64,000 nt of DNA, from contig JAFRIE010000029.1 in assembly GCA_017432885.1 (NCBI GenBank), positions 1 through 64,000 of the forward strand, in the 5' to 3' direction. The notes under the pieces were generated by a model. That model searched no databases, was not told where the DNA came from, and saw only the letters and a program-made list of their open reading frames with translations. Positions 49,583-64,000 of the stretch are shown here, piece by piece; the first letter of the stretch is position 1, and the number at the start of each line of letters is the position of its first letter. The stretch comes from Erysipelotrichaceae bacterium. GTDB taxonomy: Bacteria > Bacillota_I > Bacilli_A > Erysipelotrichales > Erysipelotrichaceae. A program made the position numbers and the translations under genes.

Positions 49583-50816
49583 ACTAAGACCGGAAACGAT
49601 CGACGATATCCTGGGTCAGAAAGACCTGACAGGGAAAGACGGCGTCATCAGAAAGTGTCTGGAAAAACAGACGATCTTTTCCTGTATCTTCTTCGGTCCT
49701 CCCGGCACAGGAAAGACGACGCTGGCCAGGGTGATCGCCAATGAGCTGCACAAGCCTTACCGGCGATTCAATGCCGTTACCGGAAACAAGAAGGATCTGG
49801 ATCAGATATTCACGGAAGCGAAACTCTCCAGTCAGCTGATCCTGATCTGTGATGAGGTGCACCGTTTAAACAAAGACAAGCAGGATCTTCTGCTTCCGCA
49901 CGTAGAAGACGGTTCCGTGATCCTGATCGGCGCTACGACGGCCAACCCCTACCATTCCATCAATCCGGCCATCCGTTCCAGATGCCATCTGTTTGAATTT
50001 AAGCCTCTTTCCGCAGAAGATATCAAAGAGGGGATCCATAAGGCTTTGGAATCCGAAAAAGGACTAAACGGCGAATATACGATTGAAGATGACGCATTGG
50101 ATCTAATCTGTGACACGGTCAACGGAGACATCCGCTGGGCCTTGAACATCCTGGAGATTTCCGCCGTTCTTTCGCCCGGCAAGGTCATCACCAAGGAAAC
50201 CATCCGGGAAAACTGCCGTCACGTATCCAACCGTTCTTTCGGTTCCGAAGATGGACACTATGATCTTTTGTCCGCCTTGCAGAAATCGATCCGGGGGTCT
50301 GATCCCAATGCGGCACTGTATTATCTAAGCCTGCTGGTACAGTCCGGAGATATTGAAGCTATCAGCCGCCGCCTTCTGGTAATTGCCTACGAAGACATCG
50401 GACTGGCCAATCCTGCACTGGCTGCCAGGACTTATCCCGCCTGTCAGGCTGCCGAACATGTCGGGTTTCCGGAAGCGATACTGCCTTTGGGCATGCATAT
50501 CATCGATCTGTGTCTCTCGCCAAAATCAAGGACCGCAACCGATGCCATACACCAGGCCTCGGCAATTGCCGAGACAAAAGCCTGCGACATGCCGAAATAT
50601 CTCAAACTGACCCCGGTTGGTTTAAACAAAGAGGAACAGTATTCCTACGAACGTTACGACTGTTTCCATAAGATACAGTATCTGCCGGAAGAACTGAAGG
50701 ATCTGGACCTGTTTCCTTCCTTCAATCCGAACCGTTATGAGCAGCAGCTGAAACAGATCTACGAGGAACTGAAACAGAATAAACGCAGTTCTGATTTAAA
50801 GAAACTGTACCGCTAG
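49560..50816 (+). CDS. rarA: Replication-associated recombination protein RarA
   Basis: A 418-aa AAA+ clamp-loader-like ATPase of the RarA/MgsA/WRNIP1 family, acting at stalled replication forks. It has the RarA N-terminus YRLRPETIDDILGQKDLTGK, Walker A FGPPGTGKTTLAR, Walker B LICDEVHRLNKDKQD, sensor 1 ILIGATTANPYHSINPAIRSR, and the C-terminal tetramerisation domain (GSDPNAALYYLSLLVQSGD, YEDIGLANP). ATG lies inside the end of the HAD gene, so the two are co-translated. Length is typical (about 420). Confidence 0.95.
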   Translation: MKEPLAYRLRPETIDDILGQKDLTGKDGVIRKCLEKQTIFSCIFFGPPGTGKTTLARVIANELHKPYRRFNAVTGNKKDLDQIFTEAKLSSQLILICDEVHRLNKDKQDLLLPHVEDGSVILIGATTANPYHSINPAIRSRCHLFEFKPLSAEDIKEGIHKALESEKGLNGEYTIEDDALDLICDTVNGDIRWALNILEISAVLSPGKVITKETIRENCRHVSNRSFGSEDGHYDLLSALQKSIRGSDPNAALYYLSLLVQSGDIEAISRRLLVIAYEDIGLANPALAARTYPACQAAEHVGFPEAILPLGMHIIDLCLSPKSRTATDAIHQASAIAETKACDMPKYLKLTPVGLNKEEQYSYERYDCFHKIQYLPEELKDLDLFPSFNPNRYEQQLKQIYEELKQNKRSSDLKKLYR

Positions 50817-50828
50817 AAAGGAAGATCC

Positions 50829-51995
50829 ATGAAGTTTGTAAAAGAGAACGAAAATACGGATAGATATGTCGATACCGTCTTCTCTGTAGTCAGGGCGGCC
50901 AAGGCGGATCCTGAAGGGATCAATGCGACAGCCGGATGTCTCTACAATGAAGAAGGAAAACTCTTTACCTACCGTTCCGTCTATGAACAGGAAAAGAAGA
51001 TTACCCCGATACAGCGGGCTTCCTATGCCGCTTCTCCGGCCGGGAATGCCGGCTATGTCGAAGCCATCAGCCGTTTTGTCCTGGAAGATAAAGTAAACAA
51101 TCACCACGTTGCCATGGCAACGCCGGGCGGAACGGGTGCGATCTTTGCAGCTATGCGGATGTGCCTGGATGAAGGGGATGAGATCCTGTATCCTGCCATA
51201 TCCTGGGGCAACTACAAGGTCATGGCTTCGGAAATGAATCTGAAAGTCTCGACCTACGACATCTACGATCTCGACGACCTGTTCAGGAAACTCGATGCGA
51301 TCCCTTCCAAGGTCTTTCTGATCGTCAACAGTCCATGCGAGAATCCGCTGGGCCATTCCTATTCTTTGGAAGAATGGCGAAGGATCAAAGAGAAGCTGGT
51401 GAGCCTGAACAGGGAAGTCGTATTGCTTTGTGACATCGCCTACATCGATTATGCCGGCAACGATCCGAAGGCTTTCCTTGAACTGTTCAATGATATTCCG
51501 GATGATCTGCTGGTCCTGATCGCGGCATCCGCATCCAAGGCTTTTTCCTATTACGGACAGAGGATCGGCGCCCTGATCGCCATTCACAACGATCCTGCCT
51601 TCCTGGACCATTTCCTCAATCTTTCCAGCCGTCTTGCCCGGGCCACCTGGTCCAACTTAAGCAATGCGGCAATGCTGAACATCACGGAAGTACTGGAACA
51701 TCACAATGAAGAATACCGGGAAGAACTGATGCAGGCCAAGGAAATGCTGAAGAAAAGGACCGACCTGTTTATTAGACAAGCGGAAGAATGTGGGTTAAAA
51801 TTATATCGGTTTTCGGACGGTTTCTTTGTAACGATCGAAATGGAAGACAACGAAACGCGTGACATCTTCCACCAGAAACTGATCGAACACCACATATACA
51901 CCATCAAAGTGAACAGGGGCATCAGAGTCGCACTGTGTTCTTTGTCTCTGGAAACTGTTGACGGTCTTGCCGGTAAGATAAAGGAATTAATGTAA
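50829..51995 (+). CDS. PLP-dependent class I/II aminotransferase
   Basis: A 388-aa fold-type I aminotransferase. The nucleotide-like PLP phosphate region is ATPGGTGAIFAAMRMCLDEG. NSPCENPLGHSYSLEEW and LLCDIAYIDY include the cofactor-ring Asp, and the Schiff-base lysine is in AASASKAFSYYGQRIGA. It is closest in layout to aromatic/aspartate aminotransferases. The amino donor cannot be fixed. AAAGGAAG precedes its start 12 nt after rarA, and its stop overlaps the start of the GtrA gene by one base. Confidence 0.88.
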   Translation: MKFVKENENTDRYVDTVFSVVRAAKADPEGINATAGCLYNEEGKLFTYRSVYEQEKKITPIQRASYAASPAGNAGYVEAISRFVLEDKVNNHHVAMATPGGTGAIFAAMRMCLDEGDEILYPAISWGNYKVMASEMNLKVSTYDIYDLDDLFRKLDAIPSKVFLIVNSPCENPLGHSYSLEEWRRIKEKLVSLNREVVLLCDIAYIDYAGNDPKAFLELFNDIPDDLLVLIAASASKAFSYYGQRIGALIAIHNDPAFLDHFLNLSSRLARATWSNLSNAAMLNITEVLEHHNEEYREELMQAKEMLKKRTDLFIRQAEECGLKLYRFSDGFFVTIEMEDNETRDIFHQKLIEHHIYTIKVNRGIRVALCSLSLETVDGLAGKIKELM

Positions 51996-52486
51996 TGGAA
52001 GAAAAAAATAAAGCTACAGTCAGTGAAACAAAACCGCAGTTTGCGATCTTTGACTGGATCGTGTCTTTGCCTGTGATCAGGATACTGAAACCTTTGTATG
52101 AATGGAAGAGAGCCTTCTGGATCTACTGTTTCCTGGGCTTTGTATCTACGGTATGCAACTACCTGTTTACCATCGTTTTAGCCGATAAGTTGCTGCTGTC
52201 AGGCACAGTCGCAAATACTATTGCCTGGATCCTGTCGACCCTGATCTCGTTTGTGCTGTTCCGGTATTTCTACTTTGACCGTACCGATAACAGTTTTATC
52301 AATGAGCTGATCAAGTTTGCTTCTGCCAGGATCTTTACGCTCGGTGTCGAGACGCTTTCAGTCTTCGTCTTTGTCGATCTGCTGCACATGAATCTGAAGA
52401 TCGTCAAGGCGGTCCTGATTCCGGTAACGGCGATCCTGAATTATTTTATTTCAAAACTCTTTGTCTTTAGAAACAAGAAGAGCTAG
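51995..52486 (+). CDS. GtrA-family membrane protein
   Basis: A 163-aa protein with four membrane helices (about residues 38-58, 70-88, 104-125, 133-152) in the GtrA pattern. After a polar N-terminus it reads AFWIYCFLGFVSTVCNYLFT, ANTIAWILSTLISFVLFRYF and KFASARIFTLGVETLSVFVF. GtrA proteins are thought to help move lipid-linked sugars across the membrane for cell-surface glycosylation. The start overlaps the aminotransferase stop (TAATG), indicating coupling. No glycosyltransferase is adjacent. Confidence 0.88.
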   Translation: MEEKNKATVSETKPQFAIFDWIVSLPVIRILKPLYEWKRAFWIYCFLGFVSTVCNYLFTIVLADKLLLSGTVANTIAWILSTLISFVLFRYFYFDRTDNSFINELIKFASARIFTLGVETLSVFVFVDLLHMNLKIVKAVLIPVTAILNYFISKLFVFRNKKS

Positions 52487-52531
52487 GACAGGCAGTAAGA
52501 AATCTGTCGGATATACAGTCTGCTTCTGAAT

Positions 52532-52566
52532 TGATCCGTAATCTGCAAAGGATCATTTGTTTTTGG
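52532..52566 (+). terminator. Terminator after the GtrA gene
   Basis: TGATCC (52532-52537) and GGATCA (52550-52555) followed by a T-rich tail (TTTGTTTTT). Confidence 0.6.
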
Positions 52567-52610
52567 CTGTTTGTTTTGTAGTGTATACAGGAACAATCAA
52601 GGAGATATTT

Positions 52611-54173
52611 ATGAAAAATCTATTTGATCGATTGAAAAATGCATTAGGCAGAATGGAAGGCTGCATCCGGCGTTTTCCGTTCAGCTTTGTTTATCTTTGT
52701 CTGATTACCCTTGCGGGATCATATCTGATTATCAGCGAGAATGAAGAATACGAAATGATGGCGGCGCTGGTATTCGGCGGTCTGTCCTGTTTCCTTCTGG
52801 AACTCGCTTATGAATATGGAATACACCGGTTCAGACCCGTGAGCCCTGTCTTGAGCTTTCTGATTGGAGCTCTGGTATTCTGGCTGCTAAAGAAGCATCA
52901 GAACGAGTATGTTGATACGGCCGTTTTCGCCATGGCACCGGCGATCGTATCGCTGATCTGCTACGTTCTTTATAGGAACAGGGAAAACAGAAAGCTGTTC
53001 AGCCATCTCATAAAGTCCCTGTTCATCGTACAGGTCTTTACCGCGGTGATCCTCGCCGGATTCAGTGTCTGTATTGCCGCATTCCACTTTCTGATCTTCG
53101 GTTTCAGCAATATCTGGAAGTTCTACGGGATCCTCTTTTTGTCGGTGACGGCACTCTTCAGTATCACCCTGTTTCTTTCCTACGTTCCGGGACCAAAGGA
53201 AGAGGTGGAAGTTTCGGAAACCTACAGGACGATGATCCACAAGGCGCTGTTCTACATTTACCTCATCCTGATCGGCATCCTGTATCTGTATATCCTCAAG
53301 ATCATCATCACCTGGAAGATGCCGGTAGGAAAGCTGAACTGGTTCGGAAGCTTTGCGTTACTGTTTTATGTTTTCTTCTATCTGTCGATCAATGAGACGG
53401 ATGGAAACATTCAGACGCTGTTTAAGAAGTACGGGGCATATCTGCTGATCCCTGTACTGGCCATCCAGCTCTTTGCGATCGTCATCAGACTCGATGCCTA
53501 TGGCCTTACGACGGCAAGATTCCTGTCGCTGATCCTGATCGGCATTGCCGTAGGCTTCATGCTGTCGAACATCTTCCGTTTTTCACCTTCCTGGTGTTTC
53601 CTGCTTATTCCGGCTGTACTGGTCCTGTTTACCTGTACCCCGCTAAACATCTACGATGTTCCTAACCGGGTCCAGGAAGGAAGACTGAAAGAAGCCCTGA
53701 CAAAAGGAGGAGCCCTTGTCAATGACAGTCTGGATGAAAGCGTTGAACTGGAAACGGAATACTGGGAAGATGCGAAATCGGCATTTGAATACCTGAGATG
53801 GAGCGATGGAAAGAAAAGCGCATTCTATGAGACGTTTGCCCAGACGCAGATCGCCAAGTCCTTCTATGAATACGGATATGAGAAGACAAACGTCCGGTCC
53901 TTCTATTACAGCAACGATTTCTTCAAAGAATACCTGGATATCAGCGGCTATCAGACGATGCGCAGGCTGACAAACGAGGATACGGATCTTTATCCGGACG
54001 ATCTGAGAGATTTCCTTCTGGGTCTTGAACAGACGGAAAACGATGAAGAAACGCTGGTGTATGAACTGAGCGACGGAAACAGGATCGTCTTCGAAAACAT
54101 CAGCTACGACTACGATTTGGACAGCGGAGAGTTCCTTTATCTGTACTGGAGAGGAATACTCTTAAGCAAGTAA
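52611..54173 (+). CDS. DUF4153 multi-pass membrane protein
   Basis: The start is ATG 52611 behind AGGAGAT; an upstream in-frame ATG is untenable because it is in the terminator/promoter region. The 520-aa protein has about twelve membrane helices in the first 370 residues, then a soluble C-terminal domain (about 370-520). It matches the DUF4153 pattern (FPFSFVYLCLITLAGSYLII at the start, a WKFYGILFLSVTALFS helix and the late NIYDVPNRVQEGRL). No function is known for this family. It is monocistronic and ends at a good terminator. Confidence 0.85.
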   Translation: MKNLFDRLKNALGRMEGCIRRFPFSFVYLCLITLAGSYLIISENEEYEMMAALVFGGLSCFLLELAYEYGIHRFRPVSPVLSFLIGALVFWLLKKHQNEYVDTAVFAMAPAIVSLICYVLYRNRENRKLFSHLIKSLFIVQVFTAVILAGFSVCIAAFHFLIFGFSNIWKFYGILFLSVTALFSITLFLSYVPGPKEEVEVSETYRTMIHKALFYIYLILIGILYLYILKIIITWKMPVGKLNWFGSFALLFYVFFYLSINETDGNIQTLFKKYGAYLLIPVLAIQLFAIVIRLDAYGLTTARFLSLILIGIAVGFMLSNIFRFSPSWCFLLIPAVLVLFTCTPLNIYDVPNRVQEGRLKEALTKGGALVNDSLDESVELETEYWEDAKSAFEYLRWSDGKKSAFYETFAQTQIAKSFYEYGYEKTNVRSFYYSNDFFKEYLDISGYQTMRRLTNEDTDLYPDDLRDFLLGLEQTENDEETLVYELSDGNRIVFENISYDYDLDSGEFLYLYWRGILLSK

Positions 54174-54181
54174 TTCCTAAG

Positions 54182-54203
54182 GCGCCTTAAAGGCGCTTTT
54201 TTC
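54182..54203 (+). terminator. Terminator of the DUF4153 gene
   Basis: GCGCC (54182-54186), TTAAA loop, GGCGC (54192-54196) and a T-run of six. Confidence 0.8.
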
Positions 54204-54332
54204 TTGTATCCTGTTCCTTGTATTCTTAAGAATTGATTAATGTTTGTGACCTGATAAGGGAATTCCGTGAGTAGATCATTGAATAATCGGATAATTAAGT
54301 TAAAATGAAGGAGATCACACAGGAGGAAAAAC

Positions 54333-55820
54333 ATGGCAGACAAAGATTTCTTAAGTCAGTTTTCTGACAACAATAAACCGGAAAGTTTTAAAGAAGAAGA
54401 GAGAATTCCTGTCGTAAAGGAGAAGAAGAAAGTCAATCCTTTGCTGCTGGGCATTGCCACGGCACTTCTTTTAGCCATTGCGATACTGCTGTATTTCCTC
54501 TTCCTGGCACCGAAAATCGCCGTTCCCGATTTTGTCGGTAAAGACAAGTCCGATGTTGCCGCCTGGGTCAGACAGCAGGGAATCGAGACTTCCGGCATCG
54601 TCTTTGATGAGATCCATGATTTTGATACCGTAGAAGGAACCGTTCTTTCCCAGAGTATAACAGTCGGAAAGAAGGTCAGAAAAGACGTCAAGATGAACTT
54701 CGTGCTGTCACTTGGACCGGATCCGGATGAAGCGATCAAGGTTCCGGATCTCTCGGCCATGAACAAGGCTGAGGTCCAGCAGTGGATCAGTAAGTATAAA
54801 TTAAGCAAGACAAAGGTCGTAACGGCATACAACGAGAATGTCGAAGAAGACGCAGTCATTGATTATGTATTCAGCGGCTGTGACGAGGAGAGTTTTACCA
54901 GAGCCTGTACCCTGAAGATCAATGTATCCAAAGGTCCTGCACCGGCCGGCAAGGTAACGGTAGAAGACTTCGAGAAGAAGCCGTTTGAAACGGTAGAAGC
55001 CTGGGCTAAAAACAAGAAGATCGACCTGACTAAGACGGAAGCCTATTCCGATAAGGTAGAAGCCGGTTATGTCATTTCCCAGTCGGTAGAAGCCGGAAAG
55101 GCGATCAACGAGGGAGACAATCTTCATGTGGTCGTATCGCTGGGCAAGGCCATCTTTATGCCGGACATGTATGAATGGACCGAGAATCAGATCAGTGCCT
55201 GGTGCAGCAAGAACGGCATCGTCCTTGCGGATGTGAAGTACCGCTATGATGAAGAGTTTAAAGGCGAGTGTATCGCCCAGAGTATTCCGGCAGGCACTCT
55301 GCTGAGTCAGGGCGACTATCTGAGTGTTACGATCTCTCTGGATGATCCGAAGATCTCGGAATTCATCAGGGACCATGGCGAACACGCTACGCTGAAAGAA
55401 CTGGAAGAATGGGTTGCCGACAAGAACCGCAACGGTGCCCATCTGACTTTGAAAGTGACCCGTCAGCTGCACGATACGATACCGGTAGACTGTATCATCG
55501 ACATGAGTAAAAAGGTTAAGAATACGGATACGGTCAAAGTGACGGTATCGGATGGAAAGAATCTGCTTCTGAAGGATAAAGACAGCAGTCTTACCTGGGA
55601 TAATGTTTCGACAGAAGAAGAGATCCGGGAACTGTGTGAATTCAATGAAGTCAGCTATGAAATCACATATGACAAGAAAGAAGGCTTATATAACGGCGAT
55701 ATTATCGATATTACAAGAAGCGACACGGGAACAAGGCCTTTGGCCGGAACCTATCTGCCGCAGAAGACAGTCGTTCAGATCGTGATCGCCGACAACGGAG
55801 ACGAAGGAATTCGTCCATGA
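54333..55820 (+). CDS. Membrane-anchored PASTA-repeat-like protein
   Basis: A 495-aa protein with a 34-residue cytoplasmic tail, one membrane helix (about 35-59, LLLGIATALLLAIAILLYFL), and then an extracellular region of about five PASTA-like repeats. Each has the pattern VPD...K...W(V/I/A), a Val/Ile-rich strand, SQSI...GK, and a closing LSLG or VSLG (for example VLSQSITVGKKV and VISQSVEAGKAI). PASTA domains normally bind muropeptides or lipid II in PknB-type kinases and PBPs. Here there is no kinase or transpeptidase domain. It starts behind AGGAGG. An FtsX-type ABC exporter follows 20 nt later. Confidence 0.8.
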   Translation: MADKDFLSQFSDNNKPESFKEEERIPVVKEKKKVNPLLLGIATALLLAIAILLYFLFLAPKIAVPDFVGKDKSDVAAWVRQQGIETSGIVFDEIHDFDTVEGTVLSQSITVGKKVRKDVKMNFVLSLGPDPDEAIKVPDLSAMNKAEVQQWISKYKLSKTKVVTAYNENVEEDAVIDYVFSGCDEESFTRACTLKINVSKGPAPAGKVTVEDFEKKPFETVEAWAKNKKIDLTKTEAYSDKVEAGYVISQSVEAGKAINEGDNLHVVVSLGKAIFMPDMYEWTENQISAWCSKNGIVLADVKYRYDEEFKGECIAQSIPAGTLLSQGDYLSVTISLDDPKISEFIRDHGEHATLKELEEWVADKNRNGAHLTLKVTRQLHDTIPVDCIIDMSKKVKNTDTVKVTVSDGKNLLLKDKDSSLTWDNVSTEEEIRELCEFNEVSYEITYDKKEGLYNGDIIDITRSDTGTRPLAGTYLPQKTVVQIVIADNGDEGIRP

Positions 55821-55840
55821 GATAGAAAGCAGGTAAAGAG

Positions 55841-57475
55841 ATGAATTTTATCAATAGAGCAATCAAGAATGTCAGCAGGAGGATGTCCAAAACTGTGCTG
55901 CTGATCCTGACGTTCTTTCTGATCAGTAACCTGGTCATTATCGGTCTGGGTGTATCAAAAGCATCGGAAAGTGCCAAGATACTGACCCGTCAGAAGATGC
56001 GGGCGGTCGTTACCTACGGCCTTGACTATAATAAGATCTGGCAATACGCCGATTCGATCGAAGATGAGGATGAACTAGAGGAGTTCTACAACAATTATCC
56101 GCGGGTCAGACTGGAAGAAGTCAGCGCCTTCCTGCAGGATGAAAGAGTCAAGACGGCCAATACGGTCAACATCAACATGTGGTATAACGATTCCCAGAAT
56201 TCCCTGGATTTCGTTCATCTGAACAACCAGGCTGAAGAAGATATCGATTCCAACGGCGGACAGTCCTGCTGGTACGACGACGTGACCGGCGAACAGACCT
56301 GTGAAACTTACAAGAATCCGCTTTTCCTCATCAAAAGCAACATGTTTCCGGACATGATTGAATTTGAAGACGGGGAATATCAGATCGTAAGCGGCAGATT
56401 CTATACCCAGCAGGAGATCGACAACGGAGCGCTGGTATGTCTGATATCCGAGAATCTGGCAGCCCTTAACGGCGTAAGTGTAGGCGACTCCATTACACTG
56501 GCGGTCAACTATCTGGCCGGATACATGCAGCAGTTCGGTGTAACGGCAGAAGATCTGGAAAACTCCTTTGAAGTCATTGGCATTTTCTCCCACAATCAGC
56601 CGATCACCCCGGATGCGCCGAACTTCAATTACTGTTATCCGTATGAGAATCCCGACAATATGATTTTCATGCCTTCTACCACCATTTACATGGCCCAGCT
56701 GCCGATGCAGCAGAAACAGTTTGATTACTATGCGGAAATGTACGCCGGAACCGATAAATCAGATGATTACTACAACGATCCGGCAAACAGACCGAGTGAA
56801 GAAAACATGGAATCCCAGATGTATATCAACGATGTTACTTTACTGCTAAACGATCCGATGGAAGTCGAAGATTTCGTCAAGGACTATCAGGCTTCCTTAA
56901 GCCAGTTCGCATCGCTTTCCGCAAACAACGAGGAGTTCAACCGTCTGGCAAAACCTCTGGATACCTTAAGCATGTATGCGAACTTCATCGTCTGGCTGGT
57001 CATCATCAATGCGATCGTCATCATTACCCTGGTCACCGCACTGACGCTGAAGACCAGAGAATACGAGATCGGCGTTCTGCTTTCGATCGGCGCTTCCAAG
57101 TTTAAGGTGATCGCCCAGTTCTTTATCGAACTGGCCATCGTCGCCATCCTCGGATTTACCTTGTCCGTCGTATCCGGAAGTCTGATCGCTAAGAAGATCG
57201 GCAATACCGTCCTGGAATACCAGATCGCTTCCAGTGAAGTATCGCAGGATGAAGACTACATCTACAACAACAACGGTTTTGATCCATGGAATACCGACTA
57301 TACGACAGACATCTCCCTGGAAGATCTGGTTGCGGAATATGAAGTCAGGATCTCTCCGATCATTATCGGCGAAATCTACGTACTGGGTCTGGGGATCGTA
57401 CTGATCTCTGTCATCATTCCTTCCTTCATGATCATGCGTTATAACCCGAAGAAGATCTTAATGAATCAGAACTAG
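55841..57475 (+). CDS. FtsX-type ABC transporter permease
   Basis: A 544-aa permease with the MacB/FtsX plan. It has an N-terminal helix (about 17-38), a large extracellular domain (about 40-375) rich in Tyr/Asn/Asp, and three C-terminal helices (about 383-407, 428-455, 505-530). ALTLKTREYEIGVLLSIGASK is the coupling-helix motif of FtsX-like permeases. It pairs with the ATPase encoded 9 nt downstream. Such pairs export peptides or act mechanically on the cell wall. The neighbouring PASTA protein favours a wall-linked role, but this is inference. Confidence 0.88.
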   Translation: MNFINRAIKNVSRRMSKTVLLILTFFLISNLVIIGLGVSKASESAKILTRQKMRAVVTYGLDYNKIWQYADSIEDEDELEEFYNNYPRVRLEEVSAFLQDERVKTANTVNINMWYNDSQNSLDFVHLNNQAEEDIDSNGGQSCWYDDVTGEQTCETYKNPLFLIKSNMFPDMIEFEDGEYQIVSGRFYTQQEIDNGALVCLISENLAALNGVSVGDSITLAVNYLAGYMQQFGVTAEDLENSFEVIGIFSHNQPITPDAPNFNYCYPYENPDNMIFMPSTTIYMAQLPMQQKQFDYYAEMYAGTDKSDDYYNDPANRPSEENMESQMYINDVTLLLNDPMEVEDFVKDYQASLSQFASLSANNEEFNRLAKPLDTLSMYANFIVWLVIINAIVIITLVTALTLKTREYEIGVLLSIGASKFKVIAQFFIELAIVAILGFTLSVVSGSLIAKKIGNTVLEYQIASSEVSQDEDYIYNNNGFDPWNTDYTTDISLEDLVAEYEVRISPIIIGEIYVLGLGIVLISVIIPSFMIMRYNPKKILMNQN

Positions 57476-57484
57476 GAGGATCAT

Positions 57485-58159
57485 ATGGCAGAAATACTTA
57501 GATTAGAAAACATCAACTATTCCTATATCGATGGCGGATACGAAAGACAGATCCTGAAAGATCTGAGTTTTGCTTTTGAAGCCGGGAAGTTCTATACGGT
57601 CCTGGGTCCTTCCGGTTCCGGCAAGACGACACTGCTTTCCCTGGTTGCGGGTCTGGATACGGCCAAGAGCGGCAAGATTTATTTCGACGGCAAAGATATC
57701 AATGAGATCGGACTGCACAAGTTCAGAAGGAATGACATTTCCATCGTCTTCCAGCAGTACAATCTGATTTCCTATCTGACGGCCGTAGAAAACGTGATGC
57801 TGGCGATGGCGGAAACGGACAATGAACTGCCTAAGGACAAGAAAAACGTCGCCTACAACCTGCTGGAACGCTTCGGTATCGTTCGCAGTAAGGCGGACCG
57901 TATGGTCAATCAGCTCTCCGGCGGTGAACAGCAAAGAGTGGCAATCGCCAGATCCTTGGCTTCCAATGTCAACCTGATCTTTGCGGACGAACCTACCGGG
58001 AACCTGGATACGGCGACCGAGAAGGAGATCATCAGTATCTTCAAGGAACTGGCACACGATTTCGGCAAGACGATCATTGTGGTTACTCACTCCGATACGG
58101 TATCCGCCATGTCCGACCAAAGAGTTCTGCTAAAAGACGGAAAACTGACACAGATATAA
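57485..58159 (+). CDS. ABC transporter ATP-binding protein, LolD/MacB type
   Basis: A 224-aa ATPase with Walker A LGPSGSGKTTLLSLVAGLD, Q-loop FQQYNLISYLTAVENV, signature QLSGGEQQRVAIARSLA, Walker B LIFADEPTGNLDTATEK and the H-loop VVTHSD. The EPTGNLD variant is typical of LolD/FtsE/MacB ATPases that drive FtsX-like permeases without transport of a solute through the membrane channel. It starts behind AGGAGGAT, 9 nt after the permease stop, and ends before a bidirectional terminator. Confidence 0.93.
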   Translation: MAEILRLENINYSYIDGGYERQILKDLSFAFEAGKFYTVLGPSGSGKTTLLSLVAGLDTAKSGKIYFDGKDINEIGLHKFRRNDISIVFQQYNLISYLTAVENVMLAMAETDNELPKDKKNVAYNLLERFGIVRSKADRMVNQLSGGEQQRVAIARSLASNVNLIFADEPTGNLDTATEKEIISIFKELAHDFGKTIIVVTHSDTVSAMSDQRVLLKDGKLTQI

Positions 58160-58164
58160 AAGAA

Positions 58165-58188
58165 AAAGCCCGGTATTGACCGGGCTTT
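58165..58188. terminator. Bidirectional terminator after the FtsX-type ABC operon
   Basis: AAAGCCCGGT (58165-58174), ATTG, ACCGGGCTTT (58179-58188): a 10-bp GC-rich stem between convergent genes. Confidence 0.9.
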
Positions 58189-58205
58189 GTTTTGAGTGGA
58201 ATCGA

Positions 58206-58775
58206 TTATTCCTCAGGCTTGTCTTCTTTTTCTTCTTTTACGATTTCTTCTGTCTTTAAAGCTTTCTTGAGGTTTTCTACGCCTTTTTCAGCGATGTTGA
58301 CAGTTGTCGTCTTAGCCTTGTTGATGGCGGACTTGACTTCCGGTTTCTCGAAGAATTCATTGACCTTCGCACCGATGTCGCTTAAGAAATCAGCGGTCTT
58401 CTTGAAAGCGTCAGATTCCTTGATCTTGTCGAATTCAGCCATGATGTCATTGCCGAGATCTTCCAGGGTTCTGCCTTTTTCATCCGGTTTCTTGGTCAGT
58501 TCGGCGATCTTCTCTTTGGTGAACTCAACTGCTTCCATGGATTTAGCTTTTACTTTATCCAGGAATTCATCCAGTTTTTCATCTTCCTGAACATCGTTAA
58601 TGATGTTCTTGACTTTTTCTATTGAAGATCTGATAGCTTCTTCTGTCTTGCCGACAAGAGCTTTTGCCTTTTCCTTACTTTCATCGTCTAGCTTCTCAAC
58701 TTTCGCAGCCAGATCGTTCTCAAGTTCTTCTACCTGAGATTCCATCTCCTTTACAGTATCATCAAATTTCTGCAT
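58206..58775 (-). CDS. Charged coiled-coil/helical-bundle protein, 189 aa
   Basis: An almost entirely helical, highly charged protein: about two fifths Lys, Glu and Asp, no Cys, no Trp and few aromatics. Heptad-like runs include DDTVKEMESQVEELENDLAA and EKVKNIINDVQEDEKLDEFL. The C-terminus is a Lys/Glu-rich tail. Such composition resembles phasin-like, late-embryogenesis-like or ribosome-protecting stress proteins, but I cannot assign a family. A perfect AAGGAGGT precedes the start, implying strong translation. The gene stands alone between the ABC operon and the XpaC operon. Confidence 0.7.
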   Translation of the reverse strand: MQKFDDTVKEMESQVEELENDLAAKVEKLDDESKEKAKALVGKTEEAIRSSIEKVKNIINDVQEDEKLDEFLDKVKAKSMEAVEFTKEKIAELTKKPDEKGRTLEDLGNDIMAEFDKIKESDAFKKTADFLSDIGAKVNEFFEKPEVKSAINKAKTTTVNIAEKGVENLKKALKTEEIVKEEKEDKPEE

Positions 58776-58870
58776 ATGATATACCTCCTTATAAATCTAT
58801 TATATAAAAAAAGATGAAAACAATGTGAATTATGCGATAATTTAGCACTCGTTTAATAATCATATAATGC

Positions 58871-58882
58871 TATAATTATATT
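58871..58882 (+). promoter_or_regulatory. -10 element upstream of the XpaC-like operon
   Basis: TATAAT (58871-58876), overlapping TATATT (58877-58882), lies a few bases from ATG 58887 with no ribosome binding site. Confidence 0.45.
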
Positions 58883-58886
58883 TGTT

Positions 58887-59852
58887 ATGAGAAGAAGAGG
58901 CGGAATCGGAATTTTCGGATTTATCATTATTATGTCGCTGCTGGATGCTTTTATGGAAAGCGGCGGTTTACTGATTTTTGGTCTGTTGGTTCCTACATTG
59001 TTTACCGGAGCGTTTATTTACGGAATTGCGAAATTCCTGAAATGGGTCATGGGCGAGAATACTTCAAACAGAAGGAGTTCCAATGTCTATACCAAGAAGT
59101 CTACAAGCTATGTAAAGAGTACACGGAACGCCCAGATCGACAAGGTCCTGGCGGAATACTTTGAGGACAACGTATCTCTGGTCCTGTTTGATGATGTATC
59201 GATTAGCACCCAGAACGGTACCTATACGACATTAGACAATCTTTATGTCAACTACAAGGAAGAAAAGATCTGTCAGCTGAAGGAATTCAAGAGTTATTAT
59301 CCCGGCGCCTATGAGAAGATCATTGATTCTCTGGCCCAGCTGACAAAGAAGTCGGTTAAAGAAAACGTCAAGAAGAAAGCAAAAGAAACGGAGAAGAAGA
59401 CAGAAGCCAAGGAAACAAAGAAGGATGTTTTCTCCGATGCGAATAAATACATCGATCAGATCAACTCTTTGAACCGCGATCTGGCCAATGAAGAAGTTAC
59501 CAACGGTCTGTATCAGACCTGTGATCTGCTGAAGCAGATCGATATCGTCGACCGGGAAGACGGAACGGTGGATTCGAAGCTGAACAAGCTGTATGAATAC
59601 TATCTTCCGATCCTGACGGGTATTCTGGAAGATTACAAGCGTCTTTCGGCTTCTCCGATCAAGGACGATGAATTCAAGAAATGTGAAACGCAGCTGGTCA
59701 AGACGATCAAGCTGATCAACGAGGCACTGAAGACGATTTATAATTCGATGCATGAGAGCGATTATATGAATCTGAATGCCAATATCAATACCCTGCAGTC
59801 GTTGCTGAAGCAGGACGGTTTCGGCTCTACGCCGTTTAAGGAGAACAAGTGA
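58887..59852 (+). CDS. XpaC-like membrane protein (5-bromo-4-chloroindolyl phosphate hydrolysis family)
   Basis: A 321-aa protein with two N-terminal membrane helices (about residues 7-25 and 27-52). A linker rich in Lys/Glu (about 155-185) follows, and then an XpaC-type helical domain (about 190-320: LYQTCDLLKQIDIVDREDG, LYEYYLPILTGILEDYKRL, LVKTIKLINEALKTIYN). XpaC proteins are often encoded with TelA-type tellurite-resistance proteins; the reported phosphatase effect is indirect and the true function is unknown. It lacks a ribosome binding site. The next gene starts at the overlapping TGATG, and a AAA+ gene follows, so the three form one operon. Confidence 0.75.
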   Translation: MRRRGGIGIFGFIIIMSLLDAFMESGGLLIFGLLVPTLFTGAFIYGIAKFLKWVMGENTSNRRSSNVYTKKSTSYVKSTRNAQIDKVLAEYFEDNVSLVLFDDVSISTQNGTYTTLDNLYVNYKEEKICQLKEFKSYYPGAYEKIIDSLAQLTKKSVKENVKKKAKETEKKTEAKETKKDVFSDANKYIDQINSLNRDLANEEVTNGLYQTCDLLKQIDIVDREDGTVDSKLNKLYEYYLPILTGILEDYKRLSASPIKDDEFKKCETQLVKTIKLINEALKTIYNSMHESDYMNLNANINTLQSLLKQDGFGSTPFKENK

Positions 59853-60361
59853 TGGCAGAGAAAAGTATCGATATGTTTAAGCTTGTTGAGGAAGTAGAGA
59901 AGCAGAAGGCGATGGACATCGATGCGATCTTCTCCGACCTTGATTCAGTCAAGAACGAAGAGATCAGCACGGTAAAGAAGAAGGTCTATACTTCACAGAC
60001 TTCCACTTCGGCAGTCGTAAACAAGCCGCGTATTCCGGATCAGATCGGCAGCTATCAGACCCGTTTTGAAGCGTTTCGGGGTGTCATTGAACATGTCTAT
60101 TACGGCGTAAACAATGCCAACGTCTATGTGGAAGGACACCGCGATGCTCTGGAAAAATACTACAAGGACGCCTATAACAATTCCAAGGATCTGTATGTGA
60201 TCGAAGCCAGAGTCAACGACGAGATCAATCGTTACGGCACGCATTCCCAGCTTTATGAAAAGGGATACTACGACGGACTGTTCTATGTCCTGAAAGCTTT
60301 GAAACGTTCCAAGGAACTGCTGATGGCTAAACTGAACAGTGAGATAAGCAGGAACCTTTAA
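59852..60361 (+). CDS. Unknown helical protein in the XpaC-AAA operon, 169 aa
   Basis: ATG 59852 overlaps the stop of the XpaC-like gene (TGATG), and AAGGAG lies 9 nt upstream. The protein is soluble. Residues 1-25 form an acidic helix (IDMFKLVEEVEKQKAMDIDA), then a Ser/Thr-rich linker of about 30 residues. A tyrosine-rich helical domain follows (YQTRFEAFRGVIEHVYYGVN, RDALEKYYKDAYNNSKDLY, YYDGLFYVLKALKRSKELLM). I do not recognise it. It ends 1 nt before the AAA+ gene, so it is probably an adaptor between the membrane protein and the ATPase; that is inference from position only. Confidence 0.7.
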   Translation: MAEKSIDMFKLVEEVEKQKAMDIDAIFSDLDSVKNEEISTVKKKVYTSQTSTSAVVNKPRIPDQIGSYQTRFEAFRGVIEHVYYGVNNANVYVEGHRDALEKYYKDAYNNSKDLYVIEARVNDEINRYGTHSQLYEKGYYDGLFYVLKALKRSKELLMAKLNSEISRNL

Positions 60362-60362
60362 T

Positions 60363-62351
60363 ATGAACAGGCACGAAGAAAAAGAAAAAATGATGGATGA
60401 GCTTTTCTCTAAAAAGAGAAGCTTTTCAAATATCTACAATGATTCTGTCGATATTCTGAAAGATACGGAAAGTGAACTGAACCGGATCCTGGCACAGAAT
60501 CAGAAAGACATTGAAGAACTGACGAAGAAGTTTAATTATTCGGATGACGATCTGAAGAGACTAAAGGCTGATATCGAAAAGGACTTCAACATTTCGATCG
60601 ATACGCCGGAAACGGTCGTACTGGGCAAGGCTTCCAAGGAAGTCTTTGACAATATCTATAAGGATCTTTCTGACAAGGTCATCGGTCAGGATGAAGCCTG
60701 TAAGGCTTTTACGACGGCTTTCAGAAGACCGTATGTCATCGGCAGCGATCCGAAGAAGATCCGCAACAGCATCATTCTGTATGGAAGCAACGGTACGGGA
60801 AGATACCAGATGGTTACGGAAATGGGCCAGCTGCTGAAGCAGTACGGCTTAAGCGTTTCATCTGAAGTCTATGTTCTGGACATGTCAAGATACCAGTCCA
60901 CTTCCCAGGAAGTCCTGTTCCTGCAGGACATCTATGTCGCCTTATCCGGCAAGAATCCAATCATTCTGATCGAGAAGTTCGAAGAAGCTTCTCCGGTATT
61001 CAACAGGATGCTGGCGGAACTTGTGCTGGAAGGGACCTGTGTCTTAAGCAAGCGCTATACGCTCAAAAACAATCAGCTGATCGAAGCGACCACGACCCTT
61101 TCGGGAGATGTCATCGATCGTCTGAACGGCAACGACAAGATCCTGGTCTTTGTCTCGGAAAAGAATCCGACCAAGATCATGGATATCTTCGGCAAGTCTT
61201 TCATCGACAAGATCGATGACAAAGTACAGACAAAGAAACTGGATGAAGAAGCGCTGAGACTGATTATCGATCAGCTGGTCGAATCGCTGGAAAGCAGATG
61301 TAAGAATCAGCTGGAGATCGATCTGAAGGCAGACAAGTCGATCCACGAGTATCTGCATTCGATTTATGAACCGAATGACGGCAAGGATTCGATCTCACCG
61401 ATGGTACAGAAGATCTACAACGAAATGGTCGATGTAGCTCTGAAATACGACGATCTTAACAGCGCACAGCTTCGTTATGAAGAGGGTGTTAAGGTCAGTT
61501 TCAATGATCTTACCATGGATCTGGATGTTATCGATGATGCCAAGGCGGAAAGAGAAGAAATACAGAAAGAACTGGACGATATCGTCGGTCTGGACTTCGT
61601 AAAGAACTATCTGCTTTCCCTGGAGAATCTGATCAAGATTAACCAGATCCGTAAGCAGAAAGGTCTTAAGACCAACGAGATCTCAAAACATATGATCTTT
61701 ACCGGAAACCCTGGAACAGGCAAAACGACGATTGCCAGACTGGTATCTAGAATGATGAAAGCCTGCGGTATCCTGAAACAGGGCCAGTTGGTAGAAGTGA
61801 CCAGAGCCGATTTGGTCGGCAAGTATGTCGGTCATACCGCTCCGCTTACGATGTCGGTCATTCAGTCTGCCCTGGGCGGTGTTCTGTTTATCGATGAAGC
61901 GTATTCCTTATACAGAGGCAAGGATGATTCCTTCGGTCTGGAAGCGATCGATACGCTGGTAAAAGCCATGGAAGACCACCGCGATGATCTAATCGTCATT
62001 CTGGCAGGCTATACGAAAGAAATGAAAGAATTCCTGGAGGCGAACTCCGGTCTGAAATCAAGATTTGCGAATATCATCGAATTCTCCGACTATACCGGTG
62101 AAGAACTGATGCTGATTGCGAAATCGATTGCCAAGGGCAAGGACTATGTCATCGCCGATGATGTATTAAGACCTTTGCAGGACTATTTCACGTTAATTCA
62201 GGCAAAGGGCGATCCGAATTCAGGCAACGGCCGTCTGGCTAGAAATCTGGTTGAAGACGCGATCCTGAACCAGTCCAAGCGACTGCTGGAACATCCGGAT
62301 GAACAGATGAACATGCTGGAGAGGGTAGACTTCAATCTGGGAGAAAAATAA
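60363..62351 (+). CDS. Double AAA+ protein with one degenerate and one CbbX/SpoVK-like ATPase domain
   Basis: A 662-aa protein. Residues 1-80 are charged and coiled-coil-like. The first AAA+ domain (about 95-330, ClpB-like: VIGQDEACKAFTTAFRRPYV) has a broken Walker A (G141-SNGTG-R147-Y148, no Lys/Thr) and a broken Walker B (I203-E204-K205), so it should not hydrolyse ATP. The second domain (about 410-650) is CbbX/SpoVK-like and intact: GNPGTGKTT with Lys454, VLFIDEAYSL with Asp511-Glu512, and a pore-loop-like GKYVG. It would act as a ring remodeller with a scaffold D1. It starts 1 nt after the 169-aa gene and ends before a terminator. Confidence 0.85.
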   Translation: MNRHEEKEKMMDELFSKKRSFSNIYNDSVDILKDTESELNRILAQNQKDIEELTKKFNYSDDDLKRLKADIEKDFNISIDTPETVVLGKASKEVFDNIYKDLSDKVIGQDEACKAFTTAFRRPYVIGSDPKKIRNSIILYGSNGTGRYQMVTEMGQLLKQYGLSVSSEVYVLDMSRYQSTSQEVLFLQDIYVALSGKNPIILIEKFEEASPVFNRMLAELVLEGTCVLSKRYTLKNNQLIEATTTLSGDVIDRLNGNDKILVFVSEKNPTKIMDIFGKSFIDKIDDKVQTKKLDEEALRLIIDQLVESLESRCKNQLEIDLKADKSIHEYLHSIYEPNDGKDSISPMVQKIYNEMVDVALKYDDLNSAQLRYEEGVKVSFNDLTMDLDVIDDAKAEREEIQKELDDIVGLDFVKNYLLSLENLIKINQIRKQKGLKTNEISKHMIFTGNPGTGKTTIARLVSRMMKACGILKQGQLVEVTRADLVGKYVGHTAPLTMSVIQSALGGVLFIDEAYSLYRGKDDSFGLEAIDTLVKAMEDHRDDLIVILAGYTKEMKEFLEANSGLKSRFANIIEFSDYTGEELMLIAKSIAKGKDYVIADDVLRPLQDYFTLIQAKGDPNSGNGRLARNLVEDAILNQSKRLLEHPDEQMNMLERVDFNLGEK

Positions 62352-62377
62352 AGTACAGGAATGATCCTGTACTTTTT
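62350..62377. terminator. Terminator of the XpaC-AAA operon
   Basis: AAGTACAGGA (62351-62360), ATGA, TCCTGTACTT (62365-62374) and T-run; also usable by the convergent minus-strand gene. Confidence 0.88.
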
Positions 62378-62399
62378 GTTTGAATCTGTATCGGAGGAA

Positions 62400-64000
62400 C
62401 TAATCCGTATCTATCTCTTCTTCGTCTTCTGCGTCTATGGCCGCCGGAACCAGTCTTGGCATGATTACCCGGGTAGCGGTACTGGCAAGCGTGGCAATAG
62501 CGGCATAGTAGGTTCCCAAGGATATGATATGACTTAGGAAAGTCGTCCCGTTGATCTCGTTGTTCATCAGCAGGATGCCGGACAGGAAGAGCAGCAGCGC
62601 TCCCATGAATGTCCTTCTAGGAAGTGCAAACGATGTGGTGACCATCAGGATGGCGGCACACAGATACAGCATAGCTACGATTCTCAGGATACCGTATTCT
62701 CCTTTAATGTAGGAAAGAAGAACAACGCCAATCAGCGAAAGCACGAAACAGATGGCGATTTGCTTCCTGTCCGGTTTCTCTTCCTGAATGAATCCGTAGC
62801 TGAGTGTCAGATAGGCTGAAATGTGTAAGAATGCTCCCATCAGCATGTTTACGGTCATGACCGTATCCGCAAACATCAGAATGATCAGCGAGATCATGAT
62901 CATCAGTACCAGTCTGTTTTTGTTGTGTAGATAACCGATCAGGGAGATGGCAACCGAGATCAGACCGATGATCAGCTTGAAATAGAGGACAAGATTTTTG
63001 GATTCCGGGAATAATGCCTTGTAGAATTCCATGATGATAAATAGCAGGAAGATCGTAAAGACACAAAGGAACGGAAGGGCTCTGTATTTTCTTCCCTGAG
63101 GGATCCAGCCCTTTCTGACCATGCGTTCGAAACGGATCCTGCCGACCAGGTAGACCAGCTGGAAAAGCACGATCGAGATGACGGCCATTACTGCAGCCAG
63201 GAAGTAGATGACCGCATCGCGCCAGTAAATGGTAGTCGGATTTGAACGGGTCAGGTTGATCGTGACGGAGGTATCTACGGTATATTCCTGCAGGTTGTAC
63301 TTTTCTTCTTCGAAAGGATGATCGGTGATGATCTCCCTGTTTCCGTCCGCAGTGTATTTTACCTTCAGGCCGTCGCCGTCGCGTAAGGAATAATCGAAGA
63401 AATACAGCTTGTCATTGGCGAATCTGCCGATCGTATAGTTGAATTCAAAGAAGTTGATATTGTCGTCTACCTTAGGACAGGTATAGATGCTGTATTCCCT
63501 GTCTTTTGGAATCATGGCTACGACTGAATCGTCTATGTATAAAAGATACTTGTTGCCTTCCGGCGTCACTCTTTCGTTTTCCTTGATCTGTACGCTGTAT
63601 TCGTCGTTTTCTTTCGTGTAGATCGGTTTTATCGATTCGATCTGTTCTCCCTTGTCGTTGTATAGATAGACATCCGCAGGAGAATAGATGTAGACCATAT
63701 TGTAATTCAGATGTTCGTTGTACAGTTGCTCCGGGTCATCGGTCGAGAAGATCCAGGAAATATACAGTTCCGGGGTATGCGCCTGGACCACATTGGCGGC
63801 AGTGGAGGCGTTCCGGTTCCATCCCCGGAAGACGCTGTTGTTGCCGATGTAGTCCTGCATCAGCAGTACCATGTAGTTGAGCAGGGCATTGGCCTCGTAC
63901 TGGTTTTCTTTATTGATTAGTACAGGGTCATTGGCCATGTCCAGTAAATTGGAAAGGATCGTGACAGGATCTCTGTTTTCCCAGATATGGATCAGTTTGT
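62400..64000 (-). CDS. Large membrane protein with extracellular domain and seven or more C-terminal helices, 5' end outside the window
   Basis: The frame is open to the right edge on the minus strand, so the N-terminus is missing; at least 533 residues are visible. The first about 290 form a soluble, Tyr/Asn-rich domain with strand-rich segments (YNMVYIYSPADVYLYNDKG, YSIYTCPKV, TVDTSVTINLTRS). A membrane helix is at the start of the transmembrane part (AVIYFLAAVMAVISIVLFQL), followed by about seven more. It ends in an acidic tail (DAEDEEEIDTD). The later helices recall YhhN-like proteins (FADTVMTVNMLMGAFLHISAY), but the match is weak. No function is claimed. Confidence 0.7.
   Translation of the reverse strand, partial: KLIHIWENRDPVTILSNLLDMANDPVLINKENQYEANALLNYMVLLMQDYIGNNSVFRGWNRNASTAANVVQAHTPELYISWIFSTDDPEQLYNEHLNYNMVYIYSPADVYLYNDKGEQIESIKPIYTKENDEYSVQIKENERVTPEGNKYLLYIDDSVVAMIPKDREYSIYTCPKVDDNINFFEFNYTIGRFANDKLYFFDYSLRDGDGLKVKYTADGNREIITDHPFEEEKYNLQEYTVDTSVTINLTRSNPTTIYWRDAVIYFLAAVMAVISIVLFQLVYLVGRIRFERMVRKGWIPQGRKYRALPFLCVFTIFLLFIIMEFYKALFPESKNLVLYFKLIIGLISVAISLIGYLHNKNRLVLMIMISLIILMFADTVMTVNMLMGAFLHISAYLTLSYGFIQEEKPDRKQIAICFVLSLIGVVLLSYIKGEYGILRIVAMLYLCAAILMVTTSFALPRRTFMGALLLFLSGILLMNNEINGTTFLSHIISLGTYYAAIATLASTATRVIMPRLVPAAIDAEDEEEIDTD

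Follow-up and report, generated by a model that had tools for sequence, protein, structure and literature searches.

A long XpaC-like protein, a protein of no known family and a half-degenerate AAA+ protein form a conserved operon associated with TelA in Erysipelotrichaceae

What is a AAA+ protein with one degenerate and one intact ATPase domain doing in an operon with a membrane protein of the XpaC type? The question is raised by three adjoining genes in a 64,000-nucleotide stretch of an Erysipelotrichaceae genome (GenBank assembly GCA_017432885.1, contig JAFRIE010000029.1, positions 1 to 64,000 of the forward strand; this whole stretch is referred to here as the window). The window lies on contig 14 of a metagenome-assembled genome (1.8 Mb, 73% complete), and the close relatives of this genome in the named collection come from the Erysipelotrichaceae of rumen and gut, some of them under the label Solobacterium. 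All three genes lie on the plus strand: gene A (58887..59852) is an open reading frame (ORF) for a 321-aa membrane-anchored long XpaC-like protein, gene B (59852..60361) encodes 169 aa from the ATG at 59852 (the ORF list gives a GTG start at 59849), and gene C (60363..62351) encodes a two-domain AAA+ protein of 662 aa. A and B overlap by 1 nucleotide (TGATG) and B and C are separated by 1 nucleotide, just as an earlier note made from the sequence alone had described; that note suggested a remodelling machine tethered to the membrane, with envelope stress or defence as possible roles. The analysis presented here indicates that membership of A-B-C in the XpaC/TelA pathway is well supported, and we lean towards regarding the three genes as a dedicated AAA+ chaperone arm of this cell-envelope stress system.

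The three genes are conserved as a unit. Among 219 confirmed loci, the best 80 (the named loci, some of which come from the same assemblies as the genomes sampled below) all have A immediately ahead of C, and 44 of them have B in between. The remaining 36 loci constitute a more distant group in which A is next to C and no B is recognisable. An arrangement this constant is not a product of chance, and the rarity of co-occurrence that the earlier note had named as telling against its proposal is not what the neighbourhoods hold. The unit is also linked to TelA. Of the 80 named loci, 18 have a TelA gene (PF05816, E 1e-113 to 1e-123) downstream of C, comprising 15 of the 36 without B and 3 of the 44 with it, many loci ending too early to reveal one; when the counts are restricted to loci with at least 5 kb of downstream sequence, they become 10 of 22 and 2 of 28, respectively. 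The order A-B-C-TelA occurs in related genera, two relatives (L318 and L319) have the five-gene order A-B-C-XpaC-TelA, and two further loci (L076 and L077) have C-XpaC-TelA with a canonical XpaC. L297 and L299 have, ahead of TelA, an XpaC-like protein of still greater length (389-400 aa), and no C was found in either of these genomes. Behind C-XpaC-TelA in L076, a locus of genome G045, lies a gene for a TPM-domain protein (L076:12227-13066; PF04536, E 4.2e-27).

The association with TelA extends beyond adjacency. We scored the presence of each gene in a family sample of 57 genomes, mostly one per genus, of which 20 were C positive: 18 with a full-length gene, one (G036) with C split into two ORFs, and one (G062) with C cut by the contig end. 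Genomes with a match to the second domain only (G061, G073, G079, and G097) were counted as negative. TelA was present above the cut-off in 28 of the 57 genomes (the TelA of G085 scored below it and was counted as absent), namely, in 20/20 genomes with C and 8/37 without C (Fisher p 2.6e-9, a value uncorrected for relatedness that overstates the strength of the association because of shared descent). Within the family sample, every genome with C has TelA as well, and in 9 of these 20 TelA lies within ~2.1 kb downstream of C. A is beside C in 16 of the C genomes, and in three more (G068, G082, and G111) an A-B pair lies elsewhere, so that A-B, C, and TelA are dispersed yet all present; G036 has only a canonical XpaC and no A. 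The window's own genome likewise keeps a TelA that is not linked to its operon. B was detected in 15 of the 57 genomes, all but one (G104) with C, by a single-sequence search that may miss divergent copies.

C is present in 32 of the 36 genomes of the window's genus, partial copies counted, which speaks for a core function. In a scan of 392 genomes of the phylum, 36 matched C at E 1e-30 or better; two-domain matches were confined to the window's family and to G045, which belongs to a second family of the same order, and the other matches outside the family were mainly to domain 2. A Clostridia record (Subdoligranulum) contains a full-length C with 43% identity over 94%, indicating that C reaches beyond the Erysipelotrichales.

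The second domain of C (61548..62333, residues ~396-657) is an intact AAA+ domain with its lid, matching PF00004 and PF17866 above their cut-offs. The earlier note had read this domain as intact and the first as having lost its Walker motifs, and an alignment of 20 of 34 C proteins (A1, which leaves out near-identical copies from the same genus, two incomplete or single-domain proteins, and the truncated L012) bears out both statements. In domain 2, the Lys and first Thr of the Walker A motif (GNPGTGKTT, 61704..61730), the pore loop Y488-V489-G490 (61824..61832), the DE pair of the Walker B motif (LFIDE, 61884..61898, reading on as LFIDEA), the Arg finger R567 (62061..62063), and the sensor-2 Arg R624, or second Arg finger (62232..62234), are each invariant in 20/20 proteins. 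The domain matched the CbbX and EccA structures (E 1e-57 to 2e-54; CbbX chain 3zuh_A, E 1.2e-57). The best NCBIfam match was the SpoVK model TIGR02881 (spore_V_K; E 4.8e-92, 307.7 bits against a cut-off of 422.95), followed by the EccA model TIGR03922 (255.7 bits over the AAA part only, cut-off 466.65) and the CbbX model TIGR02880 (245.9 bits, cut-off 459.25). Since all three curated cut-offs are missed, domain 2 is a separate member of the SpoVK/CbbX/EccA clade. It shares with that clade the Walker motifs, Arg finger, sensor 2, pore loop, and PF17866 lid, as well as the GY signature in the sensor-1 region that is given as a clade feature in PMC10659427 (A548-G549-Y550, invariant in 20/20). 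Another clade feature is an Asn that precedes the first Arg finger by four residues; in C, N561 is invariant, but the invariant R567 comes six residues after it, and the fourth residue after it is K, R, A, or Q. The characterised members of the clade, SpoVK, CbbX, and EccA, are dedicated non-proteolytic chaperones (PMC10659427). What sets C apart from them is its N-terminal part, a dead Clp-type AAA+ domain rather than tetratricopeptide repeats or a short N-terminal domain. The joining of a dead Clp-type ring to a live CbbX-type ring is a new architecture for this chaperone clade.

The first domain of C (60630..61532, residues ~90-390) is a pseudo-AAA+ domain akin to the second ring of ClpB/ClpC. 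A profile built from this domain in 17 of the 20 aligned proteins (A4) matched ClpC, ClpB, and Hsp104 chains, with a best E of 1.6e-18 (ClpC) and weaker matches to ClpX and HslU, and the alignment of domain 1 with ClpC runs from end to end and takes in the small C-terminal subdomain. Unlike the Clp ring, however, it has lost the catalytic motifs. In place of GxxGxGKT, the Walker A position reads GSNGTGRY (60783..60806, residues 141-148), and at the Walker B position IILIEK (60960..60977, residues 200-205), ILIEKF replaces hhhhDE. The 20 relatives have all lost the Thr/Ser that follows the Lys position, most have Arg in place of the Lys, the DE pair is absent from all, and the Arg-finger and sensor-2 positions are not conserved. 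Nor does the alignment contain a GYVG pore loop; a conserved element, mostly QExLFLQDLY, occupies its place. The tripeptide [LIVM]GF is the ClpP-docking signature, and it is missing from domain 1 in 19/20 relatives and from domain 2 in 20/20.

Protein A was described in the earlier note as a two-helix membrane protein with an XpaC-type domain. Two hydrophobic segments are indeed found within its first ~55 residues, and from the sequence and a structure model we distinguish two transmembrane helices (residues ~9-54), an alpha/beta domain (residues ~74-153), and an XpaC-type helical bundle (residues ~184-309). The model has a mean predicted local distance difference test (pLDDT) score of 76.8 and a predicted template modelling (pTM) score of 0.41, a value that makes the relative placement of the domains unsure. 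Only the helical bundle matches PF10112 (XpaC; Halogen_Hydrol), over residues 177-301 at E 3.1e-05 and 24.5 bits; as the Pfam gathering cut-off of 29.8 is not reached, the label XpaC-type is correct yet weak for this single sequence. The family relationship is seen more broadly in an alignment of 21 sequences (A3; 20 of 30 A-type proteins and the XpaC of L076), in which 17 match PF10112 at E 0.1 or better; 2 of these 21 are canonical XpaC proteins. A tree built from 22 proteins separates 12 long A proteins from 7 canonical XpaC proteins (210-222 aa) by one branch with support of 92/100, and the same split was recovered in 100% of 200 bootstrap trees, indicating that A is a paralogous long form and not the canonical XpaC. 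Foldseek gave no match to the A model at E <=0.001. The bundle (model residues 180-289) aligned with four-helix bundles, including a designed protein (Z 12.0, root mean square deviation [rmsd] 2.7, 102 residues aligned), Cbl TKB (Z 11.8, rmsd 2.5, 102 aligned), and the NLR coiled-coil and MLKL bundles (Z ~9.4-10.2). Because structure-alignment Z scores under ~13 for helical bundles can reflect a mere common arrangement, these values of 9 to 12 lie in the chance range, and we build no conclusion on them. The window's own genome encodes a second XpaC-like protein, on contig 9 (L326:6244-7230), which has 329 aa, membrane helices, and a different middle domain, with no B, C, or TelA nearby.

Protein B is, as the earlier note had it, a tyrosine-rich protein (8.3% Tyr) without a family: no match above the cut-off was obtained in Pfam, NCBIfam, or PADLOC. 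Up to about residue 60 it is disordered or modelled poorly; a C-terminal helical domain (residues ~66-168) follows, for which the model reaches a pLDDT of ~90 or more over most of residues 70-168. An alignment of 15 homologues (A2; 14 of 23 B proteins and an ORF from L066) has 7 invariant columns and the motifs GH..AL and GY.DGL. Profile-profile comparison of A2 with A3 detected no relationship of B to A. No Foldseek match to B was obtained at E <=0.001, the best VIA-align result had a Z of 6.2 (rmsd 4.0, 93 aligned), and no solved structure was convincingly like B. By sequence, likewise, no convincing solved relatives were found for A, B, or TelA.

These observations can be set beside what has been reported for XpaC and TelA elsewhere. 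The xpaC-yaaN genes belong to the core sigma-W regulon of Bacillus subtilis (PMC3498285), XpaC/TelA genes are under CesSR control in Lactococcus (PMC3139573), and xpaC is LiaR controlled in Enterococcus (PMC10269926). XpaC/TelA genes also respond to a bacteriocin in the garvicin response of Listeria, in which a telA mutant is nisin sensitive (Collins 2010, as cited in PMC12791056) and the mechanism is described as unknown (PMC12791056). The operons of this type (B. subtilis xpaC-yaaN, Listeria lmo1966-lmo1967, and Lactococcus llmg_1115-1116) resemble our loci in that a PF10112-type membrane protein and TelA are inherited together, XpaC and TelA being adjacent in relatives of the window's genome, and in their link to envelope stress. 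They differ in that A-B-C adds a long XpaC paralogue with an alpha/beta domain, B, and a two-domain AAA+ protein, and in that TelA of the window's genome lies elsewhere. It is these envelope-stress operons, together with the linkage and co-occurrence with TelA and the position of domain 2 in a clade of non-proteolytic chaperones, that lead us to view A-B-C as a chaperone arm of the XpaC/TelA system. The membrane-tethered machine with a possible role in envelope stress that the earlier note proposed is thus supported, given an anchored A, an intact motor in C, and a TelA that lies directly downstream in several genera and is present in every C-bearing genome of the family sample. Its further suggestion of a role in defence is not supported, so that the proposal as a whole is only partly supported.

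How such a machine might work can be outlined from its parts. A would anchor it at the cytoplasmic membrane, and A and B would recruit C, which we picture as a hexamer of two stacked rings that physically remodels a target. The inactive ClpB/ClpC-like ring may serve as a scaffold that binds A, B, or the client, while the SpoVK/CbbX-type ring would hydrolyse ATP and pull on a single dedicated client, TelA or XpaC/A being the likeliest candidates. Working without a protease partner, C would then activate, reset, or disassemble this client upon envelope damage. A bolder version, which we regard as rather doubtful, is a five-part machine of A, B, the AAA+ protein, XpaC, and TelA, in which TelA and XpaC would form an assembly where the membrane is damaged, and the AAA+ protein, with one of its two rings dead, would use ATP to disassemble or activate it, a role analogous to that of Vps4 on ESCRT-III. 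If true, this would give TelA its first defined motor partner. Every module but B has a known relative, and the novelty lies in the combination of a long XpaC, B, a AAA+ protein with a dead Clp and a live CbbX domain, XpaC, and TelA. We found no report of this combination, or of the AAA+/XpaC/TelA association, in the openly licensed PMC literature, and the available text of PMC10659427, as distinct from the operon drawings of its Fig. 3A, makes no mention of TelA or XpaC. Among Firmicutes both are widespread proteins of envelope stress, and a dedicated AAA+ partner inherited with TelA gives a concrete handle on their mechanism, through ATPase mutants, client trapping with Walker B mutants, and structures.

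Several points weigh against a chaperone arm devoted to XpaC and TelA. We know of no biochemical link of C to either protein, and the co-occurrence statistics ignore phylogeny. TelA is not adjacent to the operon in the window: the genome's own copy (G000:C55:81581-82561, E 5.7e-122) is on a different contig, directly behind what we take to be parB of a parA-parB cluster and near an apparent rsmG (L080:7564-9613, contig 55). TelA also occurs where no C was found. Typical high-scoring copies are present without C in five genomes (G071, G073, G080, G104, and G109, three of them 68-85% complete), one of which, G104, holds A-B, XpaC, and TelA, and divergent copies are present without C in three more (G061, G086, and G097); these eight genomes indicate that TelA does not need C. 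Conversely, the Subdoligranulum record with a full-length C has no TelA, and the 7 scanned neighbours of its C match no XpaC or TelA family. B, finally, is missing or beyond recognition in the 36 more distant named loci. As a separate matter, the neighbourhood of parB on contig 55 is an unexpected place for a stress gene.

C might instead serve another envelope client, with XpaC and TelA as merely co-regulated neighbours: an enzyme of the MurG type, as in the activation of the envelope enzyme MurG by SpoVK (PMC10659427), or a secretion substrate, as for EccA. The top score of the SpoVK model on domain 2 and the unlinked TelA of the window's genome would fit such a client, but the presence of TelA in 20/20 C genomes and the direct operons of C with XpaC and TelA argue otherwise, and we consider this explanation unlikely. 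That C simply is this lineage's sporulation protein SpoVK, as its best NCBIfam match might suggest, is hardly credible. The score stays under the cut-off of an equivalog expected in sporulating Firmicutes only, C carries a 390-residue extra N-terminal region, and the sporulation marker SpoIVA is found in 6/20 genomes with C, being absent from the other 14, and in 10/37 without (Fisher p 1.0), a pattern that shows no tie between C and sporulation. We therefore rejected this identity on score and phyletic pattern.

Two further explanations concern proteolysis and defence. The kinship of domain 1 with the second ring of ClpC/ClpB, the ring that docks ClpP in ClpC, invites the idea that C is a Clp-like unfoldase feeding a protease such as ClpP. 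The docking tripeptide is missing from nearly all copies of domain 1 and all of domain 2, the catalytic motifs of domain 1 are gone, and no peptidase associations are reported for the domain-2 clade in the available text of PMC10659427; we disfavour a Clp protease partner and hold it to be highly improbable. An anti-phage or Ter-like defence system, the other function raised by the earlier note, can appeal to the assignment of TelA to sub-membrane structures of Ter systems, which may block phage entry (PMC7824862). TelA is the feature shared with these systems, but no defence match was found for A-B-C (the TerB, TerC, and TerD families were not searched): the PADLOC matches of C were generic AAA ones (DolB, 5.6e-10; IetA, 4.1e-08), and A and B had none of weight. 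A scan of viral contigs yielded no relative with the domain-1 profile and 79 loci with the full C profile, mostly matching domain 2 alone. With C present in most genomes of the window's genus as well, a defence role is very unlikely, and a defence or phage origin was rejected on the generic PADLOC matches and the lack of domain-1 relatives in viral contigs.

A Shine-Dalgarno-like AAGGAGA (59838..59844, plus strand) was read in the sequence before gene B, and a terminator-like hairpin of the intrinsic type with an 11-bp stem (62350..62375, plus strand) closes the operon after C; over the whole 64-kb window, terminator-type sites numbered 8, against 3.7 expected in shuffles. Promoter-like sites were at the shuffle level (9 versus 7.1), so none is claimed, and an Rfam search of positions 50000-64000 of the window gave no match. 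Upstream of A, on the opposite strand, lies a gene for a 189-aa coiled-coil protein (58206..58775, minus strand) without a family above the cut-off in Pfam or NCBIfam. Of the named loci that carry B and have at least 1.5 kb of upstream sequence, 28 of 36 show a homologue in the same divergent position, against 0 of 31 that lack B and have enough flank, and this recurrence makes it a candidate associated gene, possibly a further component of the unit. Just upstream of the operon, at 54333-58159 on the plus strand, are genes for a PASTA-domain membrane protein that lacks a kinase domain and then a large FtsX-type permease with its ABC ATPase.

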